Shown: positions 53,173-62,526 of the stretch, piece by piece
How the letters are laid out: each line of letters begins with the position of its first letter
Position numbering within the stretch: position 1 is the first letter of the stretch
DNA from: Blastococcus litoris
GTDB taxonomy: Bacteria; Actinomycetota; Actinomycetes; Mycobacteriales; Geodermatophilaceae
Assembly: GCF_003075095.1 (NCBI RefSeq)
Contig: NZ_QCZF01000001.1
Coordinates: forward strand, 124,001-188,000
Length of the DNA stretch: 64,000 nucleotides
Reading direction: 5' to 3'
Notes under the pieces: generated by a model
Database searches by the model: none
What the model saw: only the letters and a program-made list of their open reading frames with translations
Told to the model about the DNA's origin: nothing
Translations under genes and position numbers: made by a program

Positions 53173-53552
53173 GCTGGCCGCCGGCGGGCGACGGGCGTGC
53201 CGGACAGGGAAATGGGCCCCGGGGCGTGCCTCGCCGATCCCGTCGGACGCGGATCACCCGTACGGTCGGACCCAGCCATCGGCGGGTTCAGAGTCCAGCT
53301 CCCGTGGTCAGGTTCCATCGGTCGGTCTGCGACCGGTGGAACCGCCCCTCTCCGGTGGATCGCGCCACACCGAGCGCCGCGCGATCGTCATGCTCGCGAT
53401 GAGCTCCGGTCGCTAGGGTCGGACCTGGACGCCGAGAGCCCGCGTCCACGAGCGCGTCACACAGCGGCGTGCTGCAGATGGTTCACGGGTGAGCGCCCGG
53501 GGCTGTCGGCCGAGGTCATCCGTCCCCGGTGTCACCGACCGGAGCCCTGGCC
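53173..53552 (+). other. 380-base region without a gene
   Basis: Contains GC-rich inverted sequence near 53180-53205 and no convincing coding potential. Several overlapping frames are open but lack SD and family similarity. It presumably carries the promoter of the GAF-ANTAR gene. I see no clear -35/-10 pair. Confidence 0.4.
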
Positions 53553-54278
53553 ATGAGCGATTCCCGCCGTTCGACGACGACGCACCGGGCCCTCGAGCAG
53601 CTCGGTGCCCTGGCGCTGCGGGACCACTCGATGGACTCCCTGCTGCGGCGGGTCGTCGAGCTGACCACGATGGTGATGCCCAGGCCCACCGAGTCGTCGG
53701 TCTTCCTCGTGCTCGACGGCAGGCCGGAGGCGGTGGTGTCCAGCGGCCCGCTGGCGCTGGAGGCCGACGAGGTCCAGTTCGGTCACGGGGAGGGGCCCTG
53801 CCTGCACGCCGCGGGCAGCGGCGAGGTCACCGAGGTCCCGGACACCCTCTCCGAGACCCGATGGCGGAACTACATGGGCCGTGTGGTCGAGCTGGGCGTG
53901 CGCAGCTCGCTCTCCGTCCCGCTCCCCGTCAGCGAGGGGAGCATCGGGGCACTCAACATCTACGCGCGGGAACCCCGGGCCTTCGACGAGGAGGCGCGTG
54001 CGGCGGCCATGCACTTCGTGCCGTACGCGGCGATCGCCGTGGGCAACATGCAGGCCTACGCGGACGCCCGGAGCACGGCGGAGAACCTGCAGGCGGCGCT
54101 GGCATCTCGTGCGGTGATCGACCAGGCCAAGGGCATCCTCATGGAACGGTTCAGGCTGACCGCCGACAAGGCGTTCCAGGTGCTGGCCCAGACCTCGATG
54201 AAGCAGAACATCAAGGTGCGGGTGGTCGCCGAGGAGCTCGTCCGCACCGGCGAGCTGCCGGGGACGCTCCGCTGCTGA
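53553..54278 (+). CDS. GAF-ANTAR domain regulator (RNA-binding antiterminator type)
   Basis: A 241-residue protein. GAF sensor domain (about 15-170; VFLVLDGRPEAVVSSGP, GHGEGPCLHAAGSGEVTEVPD, RSSLSVPLPVSEGSIGALNIYA) and a C-terminal ANTAR domain (about 185-235; ALASRAVIDQAKGILMERFRLTADKAFQVL) with conserved Ala, Ala/Gly and aromatic positions. ANTAR domains bind tandem hairpin RNA and cause antitermination. The cysteine of EGPCLHAA may be a redox or ligand position. ATG 53553 (GGAG eight bases upstream) preferred over GTG 53529. No partner kinase nearby. Confidence 0.9.
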   Translation: MSDSRRSTTTHRALEQLGALALRDHSMDSLLRRVVELTTMVMPRPTESSVFLVLDGRPEAVVSSGPLALEADEVQFGHGEGPCLHAAGSGEVTEVPDTLSETRWRNYMGRVVELGVRSSLSVPLPVSEGSIGALNIYAREPRAFDEEARAAAMHFVPYAAIAVGNMQAYADARSTAENLQAALASRAVIDQAKGILMERFRLTADKAFQVLAQTSMKQNIKVRVVAEELVRTGELPGTLRC

Positions 54279-54327: not shown

Positions 54328-56496
54328 TCAGCGGACCGGCTGCGGGTCCCTGGGGTCGACGGCCGGCACGCGGGCGAGCGCGGTGACGCTGTCCTCGCCG
54401 ATCGCGGCACCCTCGCCGGTCGGCTCGGGGTGGCCGAGATCGGTCAGCCAGCCGCGCAGCACGCGGTGCAGCTGCTCGGCACCGACGACCTCGCCGGGCG
54501 CCGTCCAGGCCTTCGGGTAGGCCAGCAGCGCGTGCTGCTGGGGGCCGCCGAGACCTCCGTGCGAGCCGACGTGCGGCTCGAACGGGGACGCCTCGTCGGT
54601 GTCGGGGTCGTACCGGCTGTTGATCACGACGTCGGCGCAGTGCGGGAAGGCCGAGACGCGGGCGACCAGCGCCGCGGCGTGCTCGCCGTAGGGGAGCAGG
54701 GGATCGGTGCCGACGACGACGCCGGACGCCAGCCGGTGCAGCCCGTCGCGGCCGAGCACGACCGGGCCGAACTCCTCGGAGTGCACGAGGAGGAAGCCGA
54801 CGCCGTCGTGGTCGACCAGCCCGGGCAGGAGCGCGGGCCAGTGCCGCTCGATCTCCTCCAGCGAGACCCGGCCGGGGATGTCGGGGAAGGACACCATCGC
54901 CTGGTGGCCGGAGACCACGCAGACGACGCCGGGCGCCACGCGCGGCACGTCGCCGGCCATCCCGGGCTCGACGTCGTGGTCGTGACGGACCGCTCCGGCC
55001 CGCTCCACCCGCTCGCGCAGCCGCCGGGCGATCATGCCGCCGCCCTCGCCGAGCGCGGTGGCCACCTGCCAGCCCTCGACCGGGCGCCGGCTGTCCCGGG
55101 TGCCCGTGGTCGGCGCCGTCCCGGGCGACCCGCAGAGCCGGCCGACCAGGTCCTCGACCGTCTCGCCGAACCGGTCGGCGAATGCCCAGCCCTGGGTCTG
55201 GCCGTGGTCGGAGAGGACGACGAGGTGGTACTCCCGCGGCGCCAGCGAGGCCGCCCGGTGCAGGCGGCCGAGCTGCTGGTCGATGCTGCGCAGCACGGCC
55301 AGGCTGTCGGCCCGCTCCAGCCCGCCGTGGTGGGCGGCCTCGTCGTAGCCCAGGAAGTCGGAGTAGACGACGGGGCGCCCGGCCAGCATGTCCTCGAGCA
55401 GCGCGAAGACGACGACGTCGCGGGAGATGACGGTGACCCCGGGGCGGGCCAGGGGGTAGATCCCGCCGCGGGAGACGCGGGGCCGGACGTCGTCGCGCCG
55501 CTCGCGGGCCGAGGCGGCCAGCTCGCGGACGATGTCGACGGCCGAGACGCCGAGGGTGCGCAGCGCGTTGACCGGGCTGGCGAAGTAGGCGTAGTAGCCC
55601 GAGCCGACGCGGTCGCGGGTGCGGCGCGTCCGCCGCGCGCGGGCCGGCACGACGTGCGACAGCGAGCTCATCGTGAGGCTGACGTGGGCGGCGTCGCCGG
55701 TGAACAGGTTGCCGCGGCCGGCGCCGTCCGGGGCGAGCAGCCCGCGCCCGTCGGAGTGCCGCCGCTCGACCTCGACGGCGTCGGCCGGGTGCGAGACGCG
55801 GGTGATGTGGTCGCGGTCCTTCTCGTACCAGCGGAACCCGAGGATGTCGTGGTTGGAGCCGTGCAGGATGCCGCTGACCGAGGCGCCGGTCTGCGAGCTC
55901 CAGTCGGTGTGCCAGGACGTCATCGTGTGGCTGCCCGAGCGGATCCAGGCGGCCAGGTTCGGCATCCAGCCGTCGCGGACCGCGCGACGGGCGGTGTCGT
56001 AGGCGAGCGCGTCGATCTGCAGGAAGAGCACGCCCGGTGGCCGGTCGCCCTCCGCGGCGGCAGCCGTGGCGCGGCGGCGGGCCCGGCGGAAGAAGATCTC
56101 GTCCTCGTCGACGGCGAGCAGGCTGCTGACCAGACCGGAGACCGCGGCGAGCACGACCGCCACGACCACCGCCTCGCTCAGGCCCGCCACCACCACGCCG
56201 GGGATGGCGAAGGAGACGGCGAGCACCAGCGCCCCGAAGAGCAGGAAGCTGCCCAGGCCGAGGGTGAAGAAGGCGATCGGCAGGGCCACGCGCATGACCA
56301 GCGGCCAGGCCAGCGCCGACAGCAGGCCCAGCAGCAGCGCCATCACCGGCGCCTGCCACCAGGACGGCAGCTCGAAGCCCTCGACCCGGTGGCTGAGCAC
56401 CACGAGCGCGCCGGTGACGGCCGCCCACGTGGCGACGACGCGGGCGAGGGTGCGGCCGGTGCGCAGCAGCCGGCCGTGCGGAGGGGCGGTGCTCAC
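54328..56496 (-). CDS. Fusion of holin-4-like membrane domain and alkaline-phosphatase-superfamily enzyme
   Basis: A 722-residue protein. Residues 1-140 form four predicted TM helices of the Phage_holin_4_2 family type. The rest is a type I phosphodiesterase/alkaline phosphatase fold: FLQIDALAYD (metal Asp), nucleophile region SSQTGASVSG, DFLGYDEAAHHGG, VVLSDHGQTQG, and SGHQAMVSF, with the metal-binding Asp/His residues present. Orientation suggests the enzyme domain is cytoplasmic or surface, depending on TM count. Last gene of a coupled MBL-DedA-holin/phosphatase operon, consistent with envelope lipid or polymer metabolism. Despite the name, there is no phage context. Confidence 0.86.
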   Translation of the reverse strand: MSTAPPHGRLLRTGRTLARVVATWAAVTGALVVLSHRVEGFELPSWWQAPVMALLLGLLSALAWPLVMRVALPIAFFTLGLGSFLLFGALVLAVSFAIPGVVVAGLSEAVVVAVVLAAVSGLVSSLLAVDEDEIFFRRARRRATAAAAEGDRPPGVLFLQIDALAYDTARRAVRDGWMPNLAAWIRSGSHTMTSWHTDWSSQTGASVSGILHGSNHDILGFRWYEKDRDHITRVSHPADAVEVERRHSDGRGLLAPDGAGRGNLFTGDAAHVSLTMSSLSHVVPARARRTRRTRDRVGSGYYAYFASPVNALRTLGVSAVDIVRELAASARERRDDVRPRVSRGGIYPLARPGVTVISRDVVVFALLEDMLAGRPVVYSDFLGYDEAAHHGGLERADSLAVLRSIDQQLGRLHRAASLAPREYHLVVLSDHGQTQGWAFADRFGETVEDLVGRLCGSPGTAPTTGTRDSRRPVEGWQVATALGEGGGMIARRLRERVERAGAVRHDHDVEPGMAGDVPRVAPGVVCVVSGHQAMVSFPDIPGRVSLEEIERHWPALLPGLVDHDGVGFLLVHSEEFGPVVLGRDGLHRLASGVVVGTDPLLPYGEHAAALVARVSAFPHCADVVINSRYDPDTDEASPFEPHVGSHGGLGGPQQHALLAYPKAWTAPGEVVGAEQLHRVLRGWLTDLGHPEPTGEGAAIGEDSVTALARVPAVDPRDPQPVR

Positions 56497-57122
56497 GATG
56501 ACTCGCAGTGCTCCGGCTCGGGGGCGGTGTGCACCGCACGGCGACGGCGGGCGCTGACCAGGTTCGTGACCGCGCCGACCGCGAGGACGAGGACGGTCGC
56601 GACCAGCATGGCGATCAGCGGGGAGTCGAAGATGCCGCCGCTGACCACGCCGAGCAGCGCGTAGGCCAGCGCCCACAGGAAGGCGGCGAGCAGGGACGCC
56701 GGCACCAGCCGCCGCCACGGGTAGGCGAGCGCGCCCGCGGCGACCAGGACCGGGATGCGGCCCGCGGGCAGCAGCCGGCCGGCCACGATGATCTGCCAGC
56801 CGTGCGCCCGGAACTGCTCGCGCACCTCGTCGATCCGCTCGGCGTGCTGGCCTCGGGTGACCCAGCGGACCGCCGACGGGCCGCCGAAGCGGCAGATCGC
56901 GAAGGTGATCAGGTCGCCGGCCAGCGCGGCCAGGGTGGCCACCGCGAGGACGACGGTCAGCCCGAGGCTGTCGGTGGTCATCGCGAAGGCGGCGGCGGTG
57001 CCGACGACCAGGCCGGTGGGGACCACCGGGACGATCGAGCCGAGCAGGACCAGGCCGAAGAGCAGGGGGTAGCCCACGGCGTCGTGGCCGTCCCAGGCGG
57101 AGCCGAGCAGGTCGAGGTTCAT
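56493..57122 (-). CDS. DedA family membrane protein
   Basis: A 209-residue polytopic protein with five or six hydrophobic segments. DedA features: GSIVPVVPTGLVVGTAAA near the N-terminus, GDLITFAICRFGG, and FRAHGWQIIVAGRLLPAGRIPVLVAAGALAYPWRRL, in which the Arg-x-x-Pro-x-x-Arg motif is typical. Members act in undecaprenyl-phosphate or lipid flipping and envelope stability. Coupled at both ends by ATGA and GTGA overlaps. Confidence 0.9.
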   Translation of the reverse strand: MNLDLLGSAWDGHDAVGYPLLFGLVLLGSIVPVVPTGLVVGTAAAFAMTTDSLGLTVVLAVATLAALAGDLITFAICRFGGPSAVRWVTRGQHAERIDEVREQFRAHGWQIIVAGRLLPAGRIPVLVAAGALAYPWRRLVPASLLAAFLWALAYALLGVVSGGIFDSPLIAMLVATVLVLAVGAVTNLVSARRRRAVHTAPEPEHCESS

Positions 57123-58051: not shown

Positions 58052-60628
58052 TCAGACCGCGGGGACGGCGACCAGCGCGGCGAGCTCGTCGGCGTCGAGG
58101 TCGTGCGGGTGGAGCCGGCCGTTGAGCAGCGCGGCGCCCGCGGCGAGCACGGCGTCGCGCAGCTCCGGCGTGCTGATCCCGCCGGCGATGGTGGTCAGGC
58201 CGAAGCCGCTGTTCGTGCGCAGGATGGCCGCCAGCACCTGGAGGGCGCGGTCGGTGTCGTCCCGGGCGGCGAGTGCGGCGACGTCGACCCGGACCATGTC
58301 CAGCTGCAGGCGGGCGAGCAGCGCGAACAGGCTGTGGCCCATGCCGTAGTTGTCGAGGCACAGCTTCACGCCGGTGGCCCGTGCCACCTCGAGCTCGGGC
58401 ACGAGGGCCGCGGTGCCCGCGAGGAGGGTCTCCTCGGTGAACGACAGGGTGAGGCGCTCGGCCGGCAGGCCGGAGGCGCGCAGCGCCCCGGCGACCTCGG
58501 CCGCCAGGCCCTCCGCCGTCACGACGCCGGCCGGGAGGCTCACGGCGACGCCGATCCTGTCGTCGGGGAGCTGCGCGGCCATCCGGGTCGCCTCGTGCAG
58601 CATCCAGGTCTGCAGCTCGGCGGCGCGGCCCTGGCGCTCGGCGAAGCCCCACAGCTCGAGACCGCGGACGGCGGCGTGCTCCGGGTGGCTCCACATGGGG
58701 ACGGCGTGGACGAGCTCGATGCGGCCGTCCGGGGAGACGGCGGCGTCCATGCGCAGGCTGAACACGCCCTCGGCGACGACGTCCTGGAAGTCGGGCTCGC
58801 TCTCGACGCCGGGCGCGGGGGCGTCGTCGCCCGCGACGCGGACGCAGCCCTTGCCGGCCTGCTTCGCGGCGCGCAGCGCGGCGTCGGCCTCGCGGAAGGC
58901 GACCTGGCCGCCGGCGGCGCCGAGCTCGGCGACACCGACGCTGGCCCCCACGGCGAAGGTGCCGTCGGGGGTGCGGTGCGGCATGCCGAGGGTGTCGACG
59001 ACCCGCTGCGCGACCTCCTCCGCCTCGGGAAGCGAACCGGTCACCAGGACGGCGAACTCGTCACCGCCGAGGCGGGCGACCAGGTCGTCGTCGCGGACGA
59101 CGGTGTGCAGACGGCGGGCCACCTCGACCAGCAGCTGGTCGCCGGCCTCGTGCCCGGCGACGTCGTTGACGGCCTTGAACCCGTCGAGGTCGAGCACCAG
59201 CAGGCAGCGCTCCTCCTCGGAGCCCGCGCCCAGCTCGCGGAAGAGCATGGCGCGGTTGGGCAGGGCGGTGAGGTGGTCGGTGTAGGCCATGCGCTCGAGC
59301 TCGCGCTCGCGGCGGCGGCGCTTGGTGACGTCGCGCAGGTAGAGGACGCGGCGGCCGCTGCCCGGCCGCTCGGTCGAGGTCGCCTCCAGCTCGCGGGCGG
59401 AGCCGTCGGCGGGGACGACGCGGAAGTGCAGCGGCGGGCCCTCGCCGGCGGGCACCTCGACGGTGGCGGCGGACACGGCGTCCCGGTCGGCGGGGTCGAC
59501 GAGGTCGAGCAGCGACACCTCGTCCTCGGCGTCGGCGCGCAGCCCGAGCAGGCTGCGCGCGGCCGGCGAGGTGAACAGCAGCCGGAACTCGGCGTCCATG
59601 ATCGCGATGCCGTCGGAGCTGGCCTCGATCAGCTCGCGGAAGTCCTCCTCGCTGCGGACGAGGTCCTCGGTCATGCGGCCGTCCTCGCGCATCCGGAGGA
59701 CCAGGCGCACGGCCATGAGCGTGAGGACGAGCGCGATCCCGAACTCGGCGGCGCTCGAGTGCGAGTGGTCGCGCCACTCCATGAGCCCGATGGCGACGGG
59801 CATCGAGAGCAGGGCGCCCACGACCAGCGCCATGCCCAGGGGGCTGACGACCGGGGCGGCCGCGCGCTCGGTGTGGTCGGCGAAGCGCTTCGGGGCGAAG
59901 CTCGCCGCGATCACGACCGTCTGCAGACCCATGGCCACAGCGACGTCCGAGGTCGCCGTCCAGACGGCGGACGGGTCGATGATCGCCATGGCCTCGGCCA
60001 CGCCGCCCGTGGCCTGCCAGCCGACGGCGCCGATCATGACGCTGACCGAGCGGCGCAGCGCCGCCGTCGAGACGGTGCACAGCGCGCCGGCGCCCCCGAG
60101 CATGACCGCGGCGTAGGCGCCGTACATGAGCACGAGCGAGCGCAGGTCGTCGGGGGCGTTCGCCGGGTTGACGATCGGGGTGCGCAGCACCTCGGTGACG
60201 ACGAGCAGCGCGACGGTGATGGTGAGGCCGTCGACGACCAGCGCCGGCCAGCGGGTGCGGCTGACCCGGCGGGCGAGCAGGCCGCAGACCAGCAGCGGCG
60301 AGACGGCACCGGCGAAGAGGAGGACGTCGTCGAAGCCGAAGCCGTCCAGCGCCGGGCCGGGGAAGGCGGCGGCCAGCCACTGGGCCGTCATGAACAGCAG
60401 CGCGGCCACGCCGACGATCCGCCAGGGGCGGCCGGCGGTGCGGTCCATGCCGCGGGCGATGCGGAAGGCCTCCCACGCCGAGCTCGCGGCGACGGCGCCG
60501 AGGACGACCTCGTCCCACTGCATGCCGGTGCCGTCGGGTGCGCTGAACGGCACGGTGACGGCCAGGCCGAGGAGGCCCAGCGGCACGGTCCAGCGGACGC
60601 TGCGGGGGAGCTCCCGCAGGCCGATCAC
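58052..60628 (-). CDS. Membrane PAS-GGDEF protein with degenerate EAL domain
   Basis: 858 residues. Eight or so hydrophobic segments (residues about 10-300), PAS (about 320-440: FRELIEASSDGIAIMDAEFRLLFTSPAAR), GGDEF domain with intact RLGGDEF signature near 520 and an RxxD inhibition site (RDDD) just before it, then an EAL-type domain (about 610-858). In that domain EAL reads VHAVPMW and the DDFGTGYSS loop reads DNYGMGHSLF, so phosphodiesterase residues are lost. Predicted active diguanylate cyclase. GTG 60628 overlaps the upstream gene stop (GTGA), so its translation follows the partner. Confidence 0.9.
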   Translation of the reverse strand: MIGLRELPRSVRWTVPLGLLGLAVTVPFSAPDGTGMQWDEVVLGAVAASSAWEAFRIARGMDRTAGRPWRIVGVAALLFMTAQWLAAAFPGPALDGFGFDDVLLFAGAVSPLLVCGLLARRVSRTRWPALVVDGLTITVALLVVTEVLRTPIVNPANAPDDLRSLVLMYGAYAAVMLGGAGALCTVSTAALRRSVSVMIGAVGWQATGGVAEAMAIIDPSAVWTATSDVAVAMGLQTVVIAASFAPKRFADHTERAAAPVVSPLGMALVVGALLSMPVAIGLMEWRDHSHSSAAEFGIALVLTLMAVRLVLRMREDGRMTEDLVRSEEDFRELIEASSDGIAIMDAEFRLLFTSPAARSLLGLRADAEDEVSLLDLVDPADRDAVSAATVEVPAGEGPPLHFRVVPADGSARELEATSTERPGSGRRVLYLRDVTKRRRRERELERMAYTDHLTALPNRAMLFRELGAGSEEERCLLVLDLDGFKAVNDVAGHEAGDQLLVEVARRLHTVVRDDDLVARLGGDEFAVLVTGSLPEAEEVAQRVVDTLGMPHRTPDGTFAVGASVGVAELGAAGGQVAFREADAALRAAKQAGKGCVRVAGDDAPAPGVESEPDFQDVVAEGVFSLRMDAAVSPDGRIELVHAVPMWSHPEHAAVRGLELWGFAERQGRAAELQTWMLHEATRMAAQLPDDRIGVAVSLPAGVVTAEGLAAEVAGALRASGLPAERLTLSFTEETLLAGTAALVPELEVARATGVKLCLDNYGMGHSLFALLARLQLDMVRVDVAALAARDDTDRALQVLAAILRTNSGFGLTTIAGGISTPELRDAVLAAGAALLNGRLHPHDLDADELAALVAVPAV

Positions 60629-62526
60629 GGTGCCACCGCCGGTACGGGGTCGGGGACGTCCCAGGCGCCGGCGGCGAGCTGCTCGGCCTCGAGCGGGCGG
60701 GCGAAGACGTAGCCCTGCAGGTAGCGGTGGCCCATGTCGCGCAGCAGCGTGAGCACGGCCTCGTCGGTGACGCCCTCGACGATGACGGGCAGGCCGAGGC
60801 TGTTGCCCAGCTGGAGCACCGCCCGGCACATGGCGCGGCGGGCGGGGTCGTGCTCGACGTCCGCCAGGAAGTACTGGTCCATCTTGAGCACGTCGACCGG
60901 CATGCCGACGAGGTAGGCCAGCGAGGACCAGCCGGTGCCGAAGTCGTCGACGGCGACGCGGACGCCGAGCTGGCGCAGCACGGTGAGGTCCTCGATGACG
61001 TGCGAGTCGTCGAGCAGCACCGACTCGGTGATCTCGACGATCAGCCGGGACGACGGCAGGCCGCTGTCCTCCAGGGCGGCGAGGACGTCGGGGACGAGCT
61101 CGCCGCTGCGGACCTGGCGGGCGCTGACGTTGACGGCGACCGCGAGGGCCTCGTCGAGGCCGGCGATGGTGGCGCAGGCCTCGCGCAGCACCCACCGGCC
61201 CAGCTCGGTGATGAGCGGTGACTCCTCGGCGAGGGGCACGAACTCGGTGGGGGAGACGTCGCCGAAGACGGGGTGCCGCCAGCGCAGCAGCGCCTCGACG
61301 GAGACGGTGCGGTGCATGACGACGTCGACGACGGGCTGGAAGACCAGCCGCAGCTCGCCGCGCTCCAGGGCGCCGTCGAGGTCGGCCCGCAGCGCGGCCC
61401 GCCGGTCCTCCTCGACGCGCAGGGCGTCGTCGTAGCGGTGCACGGAGCCGGCGCCGGCGGTGCGGGCGCTGCGCAGGGCGAGCTCGCCGCGGCGCAGGGC
61501 CTCGCCGGTGTCGACGTCGGCGCACAGGGCGGTGACGCCGGCGACGGCGGTGAGGCGGAGCGAGCCGCCCGGGATCTGGACCGGGCCGACGGCCTCGACG
61601 AGGCGGGTGGCGACTGTCTCGGCGTCGGCGATGCCGCCGTCGACGAGGACGACGAAGTCGCCGTCCTTGCCGCGGGCCAGCCAGTCCTGCCCGCGCAGGG
61701 CGCGGGTGAGCCGGGCGGTCAGCGAGCGCAGGACGGCGCTCTCGACGTTGGGGGCGAGGACCTCGGAGGCCAGGCCGCTGATGCGGACCAGCGCGAGGGC
61801 GTAGGGCTGGCCGACGGCGTCCCGCTGGACGGCGCCCAGCCGGCGCACCAGCGCCGCCCGGTTGGGCAGGCCGGTGACCGGGTCGGTGAGCGAGAACTCC
61901 TGCAGGTCGGGGTCGATGCTCGCCGTCGTCCCGCGGGAGCTGACGTCGCGGCAGTACAGGACGAGCGCACCGACCTCGGGGTCGGTGCGCAGGTCGCGGA
62001 CGGTGGCCTGGATCAGCCGCCAGCGGCCGTCGGCGTGCCGGACCCGCGCGGTGCGGACGGCGTGCTCGTCGGGCCGGATGCGGTCGGCGGCCAGGGCGCC
62101 GGTGAGCTCGGACCGGTCGTCGGGGTGGACGCAGGTGACCACCGGCAGGCCGGCGACGGTCGCGGGATCGACGCCGAGCAGGTCGGCGATGCCCTGGGAG
62201 GCGAAGGTGATGCGCAGCCGGTCGTCGAGGATGACGACGGGGTCGACGCTGCCCTTCACCAGGATCCGGAACGAGGACTGGCTGCGCGCCAGCGCCCCGG
62301 TGAGCCGGCGCTGGCGGGTCCACAGGGTGGCCTGGAAGCCCACGAGGACGGCGAGACCGGCGCCGGCCACGACCGGGCCCAGGCTGGAGGGCACCGCGAG
62401 CAGGCCGCCCACGACGGCGGCGACGGCGACCACGGCCACGGGGACGGCGAGCAGCCCGGTGCGTCCGCTGCGGGACGCGACCGGGAGCGCAGGCCCTGGC
62501 TGCCCCAGGACGGGGGCGGTGGTCAC
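60625..62526 (-). CDS. PAS-GGDEF-EAL protein with degenerate GGDEF and intact EAL
   Basis: 633 residues. Two N-terminal TM helices (about 22-70), PAS domain (about 85-205: FRILVKGSVDPVVILDDRLRITF), degenerate GGDEF (about 215-370; signature position reads RGKDGDFVV, so no cyclase activity expected), and an EAL domain (about 375-625) with EALLRWRHP, VNVSARQ, EITES, DDFGTGWSSLAYL, KMDQYF and VEGVTD. All metal and catalytic residues appear present, so predicted c-di-GMP phosphodiesterase. Coupled to the GGDEF-active partner downstream. Confidence 0.9.
   Translation of the reverse strand: MTTAPVLGQPGPALPVASRSGRTGLLAVPVAVVAVAAVVGGLLAVPSSLGPVVAGAGLAVLVGFQATLWTRQRRLTGALARSQSSFRILVKGSVDPVVILDDRLRITFASQGIADLLGVDPATVAGLPVVTCVHPDDRSELTGALAADRIRPDEHAVRTARVRHADGRWRLIQATVRDLRTDPEVGALVLYCRDVSSRGTTASIDPDLQEFSLTDPVTGLPNRAALVRRLGAVQRDAVGQPYALALVRISGLASEVLAPNVESAVLRSLTARLTRALRGQDWLARGKDGDFVVLVDGGIADAETVATRLVEAVGPVQIPGGSLRLTAVAGVTALCADVDTGEALRRGELALRSARTAGAGSVHRYDDALRVEEDRRAALRADLDGALERGELRLVFQPVVDVVMHRTVSVEALLRWRHPVFGDVSPTEFVPLAEESPLITELGRWVLREACATIAGLDEALAVAVNVSARQVRSGELVPDVLAALEDSGLPSSRLIVEITESVLLDDSHVIEDLTVLRQLGVRVAVDDFGTGWSSLAYLVGMPVDVLKMDQYFLADVEHDPARRAMCRAVLQLGNSLGLPVIVEGVTDEAVLTLLRDMGHRYLQGYVFARPLEAEQLAAGAWDVPDPVPAVAP

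Follow-up and report, generated by a model that had tools for sequence, protein, structure and literature searches.

Two adjacent genes on the minus strand of the window, the 64,000-nucleotide stretch of Blastococcus litoris DNA analysed here, encode PAS-GGDEF-EAL proteins that have lost opposite halves of their catalytic equipment. The upstream gene, P0001 (60625-62526), encodes 633 amino acids comprising N-terminal TM helices, a PAS domain, a dead GGDEF domain and an intact EAL domain, and the downstream gene, P0002 (58052-60628), encodes 858 amino acids comprising a membrane domain, a PAS domain, an intact GGDEF domain and a dead EAL domain. P0001 is a predicted c-di-GMP phosphodiesterase (PDE) and P0002 a predicted diguanylate cyclase (DGC), and it is considered probable (about 0.72) that together they form a membrane-bound, local module of antagonistic c-di-GMP activities with feedback. 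In the proposed mechanism, the two proteins would be made together from their overlapping genes and anchored at the membrane, with separate PAS and membrane inputs, and the c-di-GMP produced by P0002 would feed back on the P0001 phosphodiesterase through an I-site. The dead GGDEF domain of P0001 most likely keeps this c-di-GMP-binding site together with a partner surface, and for the dead EAL domain of P0002 the likeliest role is that of a surface for dimerisation or for the partner. The host genome (4.63 Mb, 87 contigs) belongs to the family Geodermatophilaceae, which includes Blastococcus, and, of the loci recovered, those of Blastococcus haudaquaticus come from its nearest relative with a name (83% over P0002).

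All features of the pair lie on the minus strand. P0001 begins with a membrane region (62311-62457, residues about 24-72), placed at residues 20-70 by hydropathy and represented in the predicted model by helices H24-43 and H49-91, followed by a PAS domain recognised by Pfam (61927-62265, residues about 88-200), the dead GGDEF domain (61450-61890, residues 213-359) and the intact EAL domain (60694-61386, residues 381-611). The EAL domain scores 216.8 bits in Pfam and carries the complete octad E N E D D K E Q (E411, N466, E498, D527, D528, K548, E584 and Q604), whereas the GGDEF domain scores 30.9 bits in Pfam and, with 26.1 against 37.4 bits, falls under the NCBIfam GGDEF cut-off. In the latter domain, the metal Asp is replaced by Arg, the FKxxND and GHxxGD motifs are lost, and KDGDF (61654-61668) stands in place of the GGDEF signature. 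Since an AGDEF enzyme is described as active (PMC3974145), one altered signature letter is no proof of inactivity; the domain is called dead because metal and substrate residues have been lost together. The predicted model of P0001 is weak in places (pLDDT 74, with residues 530-543 and 603-633 below 50), and the claims made here for this protein therefore rest on its sequence. Among P0001 orthologs, a long multi-TM N-terminus is found in the upstream frame in L112, L118, L130, L133 and L138 (genus groups g4, g5 and g7) and a short one of about two helices in L083, L100 and L151 (g1, g12 and g8); judging from these eight stop-to-stop frames, in which starts are not fixed, the membrane input of P0001 seems to have been shortened in the Blastococcus line.

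P0002 opens with a membrane domain (59687-60604, residues 9-314) that shows about seven hydrophobic stretches by hydropathy and ten long helices in the model and has no match in Pfam. It continues with a PAS domain (59351-59647, residues 328-426), also from Pfam, so that the PAS inputs proposed for both proteins by the sequence-only reading are borne out at the level of domains. The intact GGDEF domain (58850-59287, residues 448-593) retains D480, K485, N488 and D497 as well as RxxD (59084-59095, residues 512-515) and the GGDEF signature (59054-59068, residues 521-525); it scores 117.6 bits in Pfam and stands above the NCBIfam GGDEF cut-off (108.4 bits). The dead EAL domain, a Pfam stretch of 98.1 bits (58112-58732, residues 633-839), reads H S S D N R G N at the octad and nonetheless takes up an EAL fold in the model (target TM up to 0.85). 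Upon alignment of P0001 and P0002 by HMMER to the solved GGDEF-EAL proteins 4rnf, 4rnh, 5m3c and 5xgb, the altered residues were found at the homologous positions of these proteins, and the opposite losses first noticed from the letters hold in both proteins and in every readable ortholog. The sequence-only reading mentioned neither the RxxD kept by P0001, nor the large membrane domain of P0002, nor a second tandem elsewhere in the genome.

Orthologs were sought in 96 Geodermatophilaceae genomes, of which 59 contain P0001 and 55 contain P0002; both genes are present in 52, P0001 only in seven (G058, G064, G065, G083, G087, G088 and G092), P0002 only in three (G002, G039 and G076) and neither in 34. 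The two-gene module is thus conserved, and the genes co-occur strongly (Fisher test, relatedness ignored). The GGDEF domain of P0001 is dead in 57/57 readable orthologs, all of which lack the metal Asp, the Lys and the Asn of FKxxND, and the EAL octad is intact in 59/59, including one in which a single residue lies off the contig. At the position of the catalytic Glu in the signature, 27 of the 57 orthologs have E, 29 have D and one has S; in g4 and g7, with signatures such as GGAEF and GVSEF, P0001 is less decayed, since this Glu is still E there. Conversely, P0002 has an intact GGDEF, RxxD and D480/K485/N488/D497 in 55/55 orthologs and a dead EAL in 53/53 readable ones, with the octad complete in none of these, the EAL Glu lost in all 53, the Arg of EALLRW lost in 52 and the other octad positions varying. 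In Blastococcus aggregatus DSM 4725, the P0002 ortholog (L149, G093:C4; 6001-8563 in L177 coordinates) is split near residue 185 by a frame change, which may be genuine or an error of sequencing, and was counted through its 3' piece only. No relative with both halves intact, the observation that would have spoken against the sequence-only reading, was found among the readable orthologs of either gene and, judged by its motifs, the loss of opposite halves is a fixed trait of the family. In one genome (L137, G009:C57:38000-52000), a three-gene array consists of a GGDEF-live/EAL-dead protein followed by a P0001-like and a P0002-like protein, with the split kept.

Degenerate domains are otherwise rare in the genome of the window. 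The full EAL octad is present in 19 of its 21 EAL domains, the exceptions being P0002 and the upstream protein of a second tandem (module B, below), and among the 31 GGDEF domains clear degeneration is confined to three (P0001, the module B upstream protein and L028), several others being one letter off, e.g. AGDEF. This rarity, together with the conservation of the split in the family, argues against chance as its origin. L028 (G000:C3:400587) is a GGDEF-EAL protein outside both tandems, with a dead GGDEF (EGEQF, without RxxD) and an intact EAL octad.

The two genes are joined by a GTGA overlap (60625-60628), P0001 ending in CCG TGA (stop at 60627-60625) and P0002 starting at the GTG within it (60628-60626). 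The coordinates, strand, motifs and coupling given by the sequence-only reading are as the sequence has them, and the coupling extends to the family: RTGA lies at the P0001 stop in all 52 ortholog pairs (42 GTGA, 10 ATGA) across six genus groups, its start codon being in the P0002 frame in 51 (the exception is G061), and in 36/36 pairs from named records, mostly of the same genomes. In the seven genomes with P0001 in which P0002 was not seen, the stop context is CTGA in three, TTGA in one and GTGA in three. From the gene overlap, a fixed P0001:P0002 ratio, or 'stoichiometric' output, may be inferred.

The strongest alternative, less probable than the antagonistic module yet to be taken seriously, is that P0001 and P0002 are a plain PDE and a plain DGC acting independently, whose common operon would reflect nothing more than their origin by tandem duplication and whose dead halves would be folded relics used for dimerisation within each protein or as linkers. 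It accommodates the 10 genomes with a single gene among the 62 with at least one, which tell against strict interdependence; two of the ten, G064 and G076, are less than 90% complete, and a contig end interrupts G064. In the nine of these that are readable, the dead half is still dead. Extra copies in G036 and G032 that have no partner nearby and show the same dead halves are accommodated as well. The faster evolution of the dead EAL than of the live EAL (see below) also fits independence, as does the recurrence of the overlap in module B, since the overlap may thus have come down from the ancestral tandem. The retention of the overlap in every pair over six genus groups and the strong co-occurrence of the genes speak against it.

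Module B (L148, G000:C11:6703-11171) is a paralogous tandem of two GGDEF-EAL proteins and resembles the pair (module A) in being a sister two-gene arrangement with a dead upstream GGDEF and genes that overlap or are closely spaced. In the genome of the window, both sites of its upstream protein are altered (GGGAF; octad E K Q T G K E Q), both sites of its downstream protein are intact, and the genes share an ATGA overlap. Across the 17 genomes where both genes could be read, the upstream GGDEF is dead in 17/17 and the downstream GGDEF intact in 17/17. It differs from the pair in that the downstream protein keeps both sites, by motif, in 16/17, the octad of G009 differing in one residue, and in that the upstream EAL octad, intact in nine genomes, is altered in eight (G000, G011, G034, G043, G053, G084, G002 and G009), among which fall all six Blastococcus-group genomes read. 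At the module B junction, 11 of the 17 genomes have RTGA in the downstream frame, four have an ATG that overlaps the stop by one base, and two have their nearest start 2-4 bases past the stop. The overlap is thus not tied to the full split, because the module B downstream protein keeps both sites and yet shows RTGA; likewise, since the genes of module B are also overlapping or closely spaced, the tight coupling of P0001 and P0002 is, on these junctions, probably ancestral and was then kept.

In a tree of 77 rows, the upstream and downstream proteins of modules A and B formed four single groups, ((Aup,Bup) 100/99, (Adn,Bdn) 96/82), and 13 further GGDEF-EAL proteins from the genome of the window fell outside them. 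This topology and the paralogous tandem indicate that the gene pair was duplicated as a unit. The simplest account of the sequences is a history of five steps, in which a gene for a membrane-PAS-GGDEF-EAL protein would have been duplicated in tandem, the upstream line would have lost its GGDEF, the whole tandem would then have been duplicated into modules A and B, the EAL would have been lost in the P0002 line, later than the upstream GGDEF, and the EAL of the module B upstream gene would have decayed separately. Independent losses of GGDEF in Aup and Bup are possible. In an order-level search of 150 genomes with P0001, the best match outside the family scored 307 bits at 39% identity (shorter stretches reached 42%), and two neighbouring GGDEF-EAL proteins were present at none of the five outgroup loci inspected, one of which (L228) has an EAL-bearing neighbour.

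The sequence-only reading had suggested that the inert halves may sense GTP or c-di-GMP or act as heterodimer surfaces; for P0001, a c-di-GMP role is the better supported, and GTP sensing is not supported. The dead GGDEF domain of P0001 retains a putative I-site, made up of RxxD (RGQD, residues 278-281, 61684-61695) and R308 (61603-61605), taken as its third Arg and presumably the counterpart of R390 in PleD numbering; R278, D281 and R308 are invariant in 57/57 orthologs. The presence of RxxD alone is weak evidence, since it occurs in 26 of the 31 GGDEF domains of this genome; what counts is that it has persisted in a domain whose active site has been lost. Nor does the Asp of the I-site appear to be a strict structural need, as RxxE is found in the module B upstream protein of four of 17 genomes. 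With the I-site kept and the metal and GTP residues lost, the sequence of this domain favours c-di-GMP sensing over GTP sensing. A dead GGDEF that senses GTP and thereby activates the EAL, as in Caulobacter PdeA/CC3396, which has the same PAS-GGDEF(dead)-EAL order, is accordingly rejected for P0001 as very improbable, because the metal Asp, Lys and Asn that GTP binding would call upon are gone.

Relative dN/dS values, which are to be read as comparisons between domains only, absolute values not being trusted at 71-77% GC, were 0.40 for the dead and 0.385 for the live GGDEF in the genus group of the window (g1, 12 genomes) and 0.45 and 0.34, respectively, in g7 (16 genomes), compared with 0.52 for the dead and 0.22 for the live EAL in g1 and 0.63 and 0.29 in g7. 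Simple decay of the inert halves is unlikely, since the matches listed carry no reported internal stops and constraint still acts on the dead GGDEF. In the dead EAL of P0002, variation is lowest at residues 751-774, the loop-6 region, located at EAL dimer surfaces. Its conservation is only suggestive of a dimer-surface role because this is likewise the best-conserved part of the live EAL.

A bolder and rather unlikely form of the antagonistic module is a self-limiting membrane c-di-GMP 'thermostat', in which P0001 and P0002 would be an obligate heterodimer of sister paralogs. Live GGDEF would pack on dead GGDEF and live EAL on dead EAL, assembly by itself would activate one enzyme and silence its partner, and c-di-GMP from P0002, bound at the P0001 I-site, would trigger destruction. 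If true, this would be one enzyme machine built from two reciprocally decayed halves and evolved by duplication. In a further, improbable alternative, P0002 would both make and sense c-di-GMP, its dead EAL acting as a receptor like those of LapD or FimX. In EAL domains of this type, c-di-GMP is held by the EAL Glu and the Arg of xLLR. It is precisely these residues that P0002 orthologs have lost, in 53/53 and 52/53, respectively, with variation at the other octad positions, which renders canonical c-di-GMP sensing by this domain doubtful, even though the GGDEF-EAL region of P0002 also matches LapD structures and there are precedents for dead EAL domains as receptors, such as LapD (PMC5635695).

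On the best reading of its sequences, the antagonistic pair would work like DosC/DosP (DgcO/PdeO) of E. coli and yet be distinct from it. The E. coli pair combines a globin-coupled cyclase with a haem PAS. DosC, the cyclase, has no EAL domain and is therefore not a reciprocally decayed paralog of DosP; no globin is among the Pfam matches of P0002. DosC and DosP are described as a DGC and a PDE within one larger complex, DosP having PAS, GGDEF and EAL parts without cyclase activity (PMC4263535, PMC5635695). The likeness lies in a separate DGC and PDE encoded together, here by sequence alone, and, when Foldseek matches of P0001 are ranked by E-value, DosP comes first, although the TM-score is low (0.28); the differences are that P0001 and P0002 are both membrane-anchored sister paralogs with reciprocal decay and that the NCBIfam DosP cut-off is missed (242.8 against 857 bits). 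The E. coli trigger phosphodiesterase PdeR (YciR) similarly combines PAS, a degenerate GGDEF and EAL and binds a DGC (DgcM) directly, whereas the portion of PMC5635695 concerned with these two proteins describes no common operon, overlap or descent for them. In LapD, a degenerate EAL touches the GGDEF of a DGC (LapD-GcbC; PMC5635695), unlike P0002, in which the GGDEF is intact, the EAL lacks the expected c-di-GMP-binding residues and the NCBIfam LapD cut-off is missed (75.1 against 1020 bits). CdgI resembles P0001 in retaining the I-site with the A-site lost (PMC5635695), and P0001 differs in that its dead GGDEF is joined to a live EAL in one chain and has a cyclase as partner. None of the NCBIfam equivalogs listed reached its cut-off, the list for P0002 covering 25 of 27. 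In the literature, one paper turned up for Geodermatophilaceae and c-di-GMP, and the two for Geodermatophilus and diguanylate cyclases bear titles on other subjects. Full texts that join Blastococcus to cyclic di-GMP were looked for and none was found, nor did literature searches for tandem degenerate GGDEF-EAL proteins of Actinobacteria with c-di-GMP or for GGDEF/EAL gene duplication and subfunctionalization in c-di-GMP signalling. Judged from the sequences, what sets the pair apart from known ones is that both partners are sister paralogs with reciprocal decay.

Many GGDEF-EAL proteins hold both opposing activities in one chain, and the pair bears on the question of how such chains choose a direction. 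It constitutes a natural experiment, in which the activities of a duplicated pair have been parted between coupled genes across genera beside a sister pair that has decayed differently, and the roles of dead GGDEF and EAL domains become testable in this family by domain swap or removal.

Downstream of the pair, genes for MBL-fold, VTT and phosphodiesterase proteins are each present in 20 of 31 named loci with full flanks, counted gene by gene. In the window, the phosphodiesterase gene of this set is the minus-strand gene at 54328-56718, which encodes a Phage_holin_4_2 membrane domain fused to a type I phosphodiesterase/nucleotide pyrophosphatase domain, and near this MBL/VTT/phosphodiesterase block the plus strand (53529-54278) encodes a GAF-ANTAR protein, a predicted RNA-binding antiterminator.
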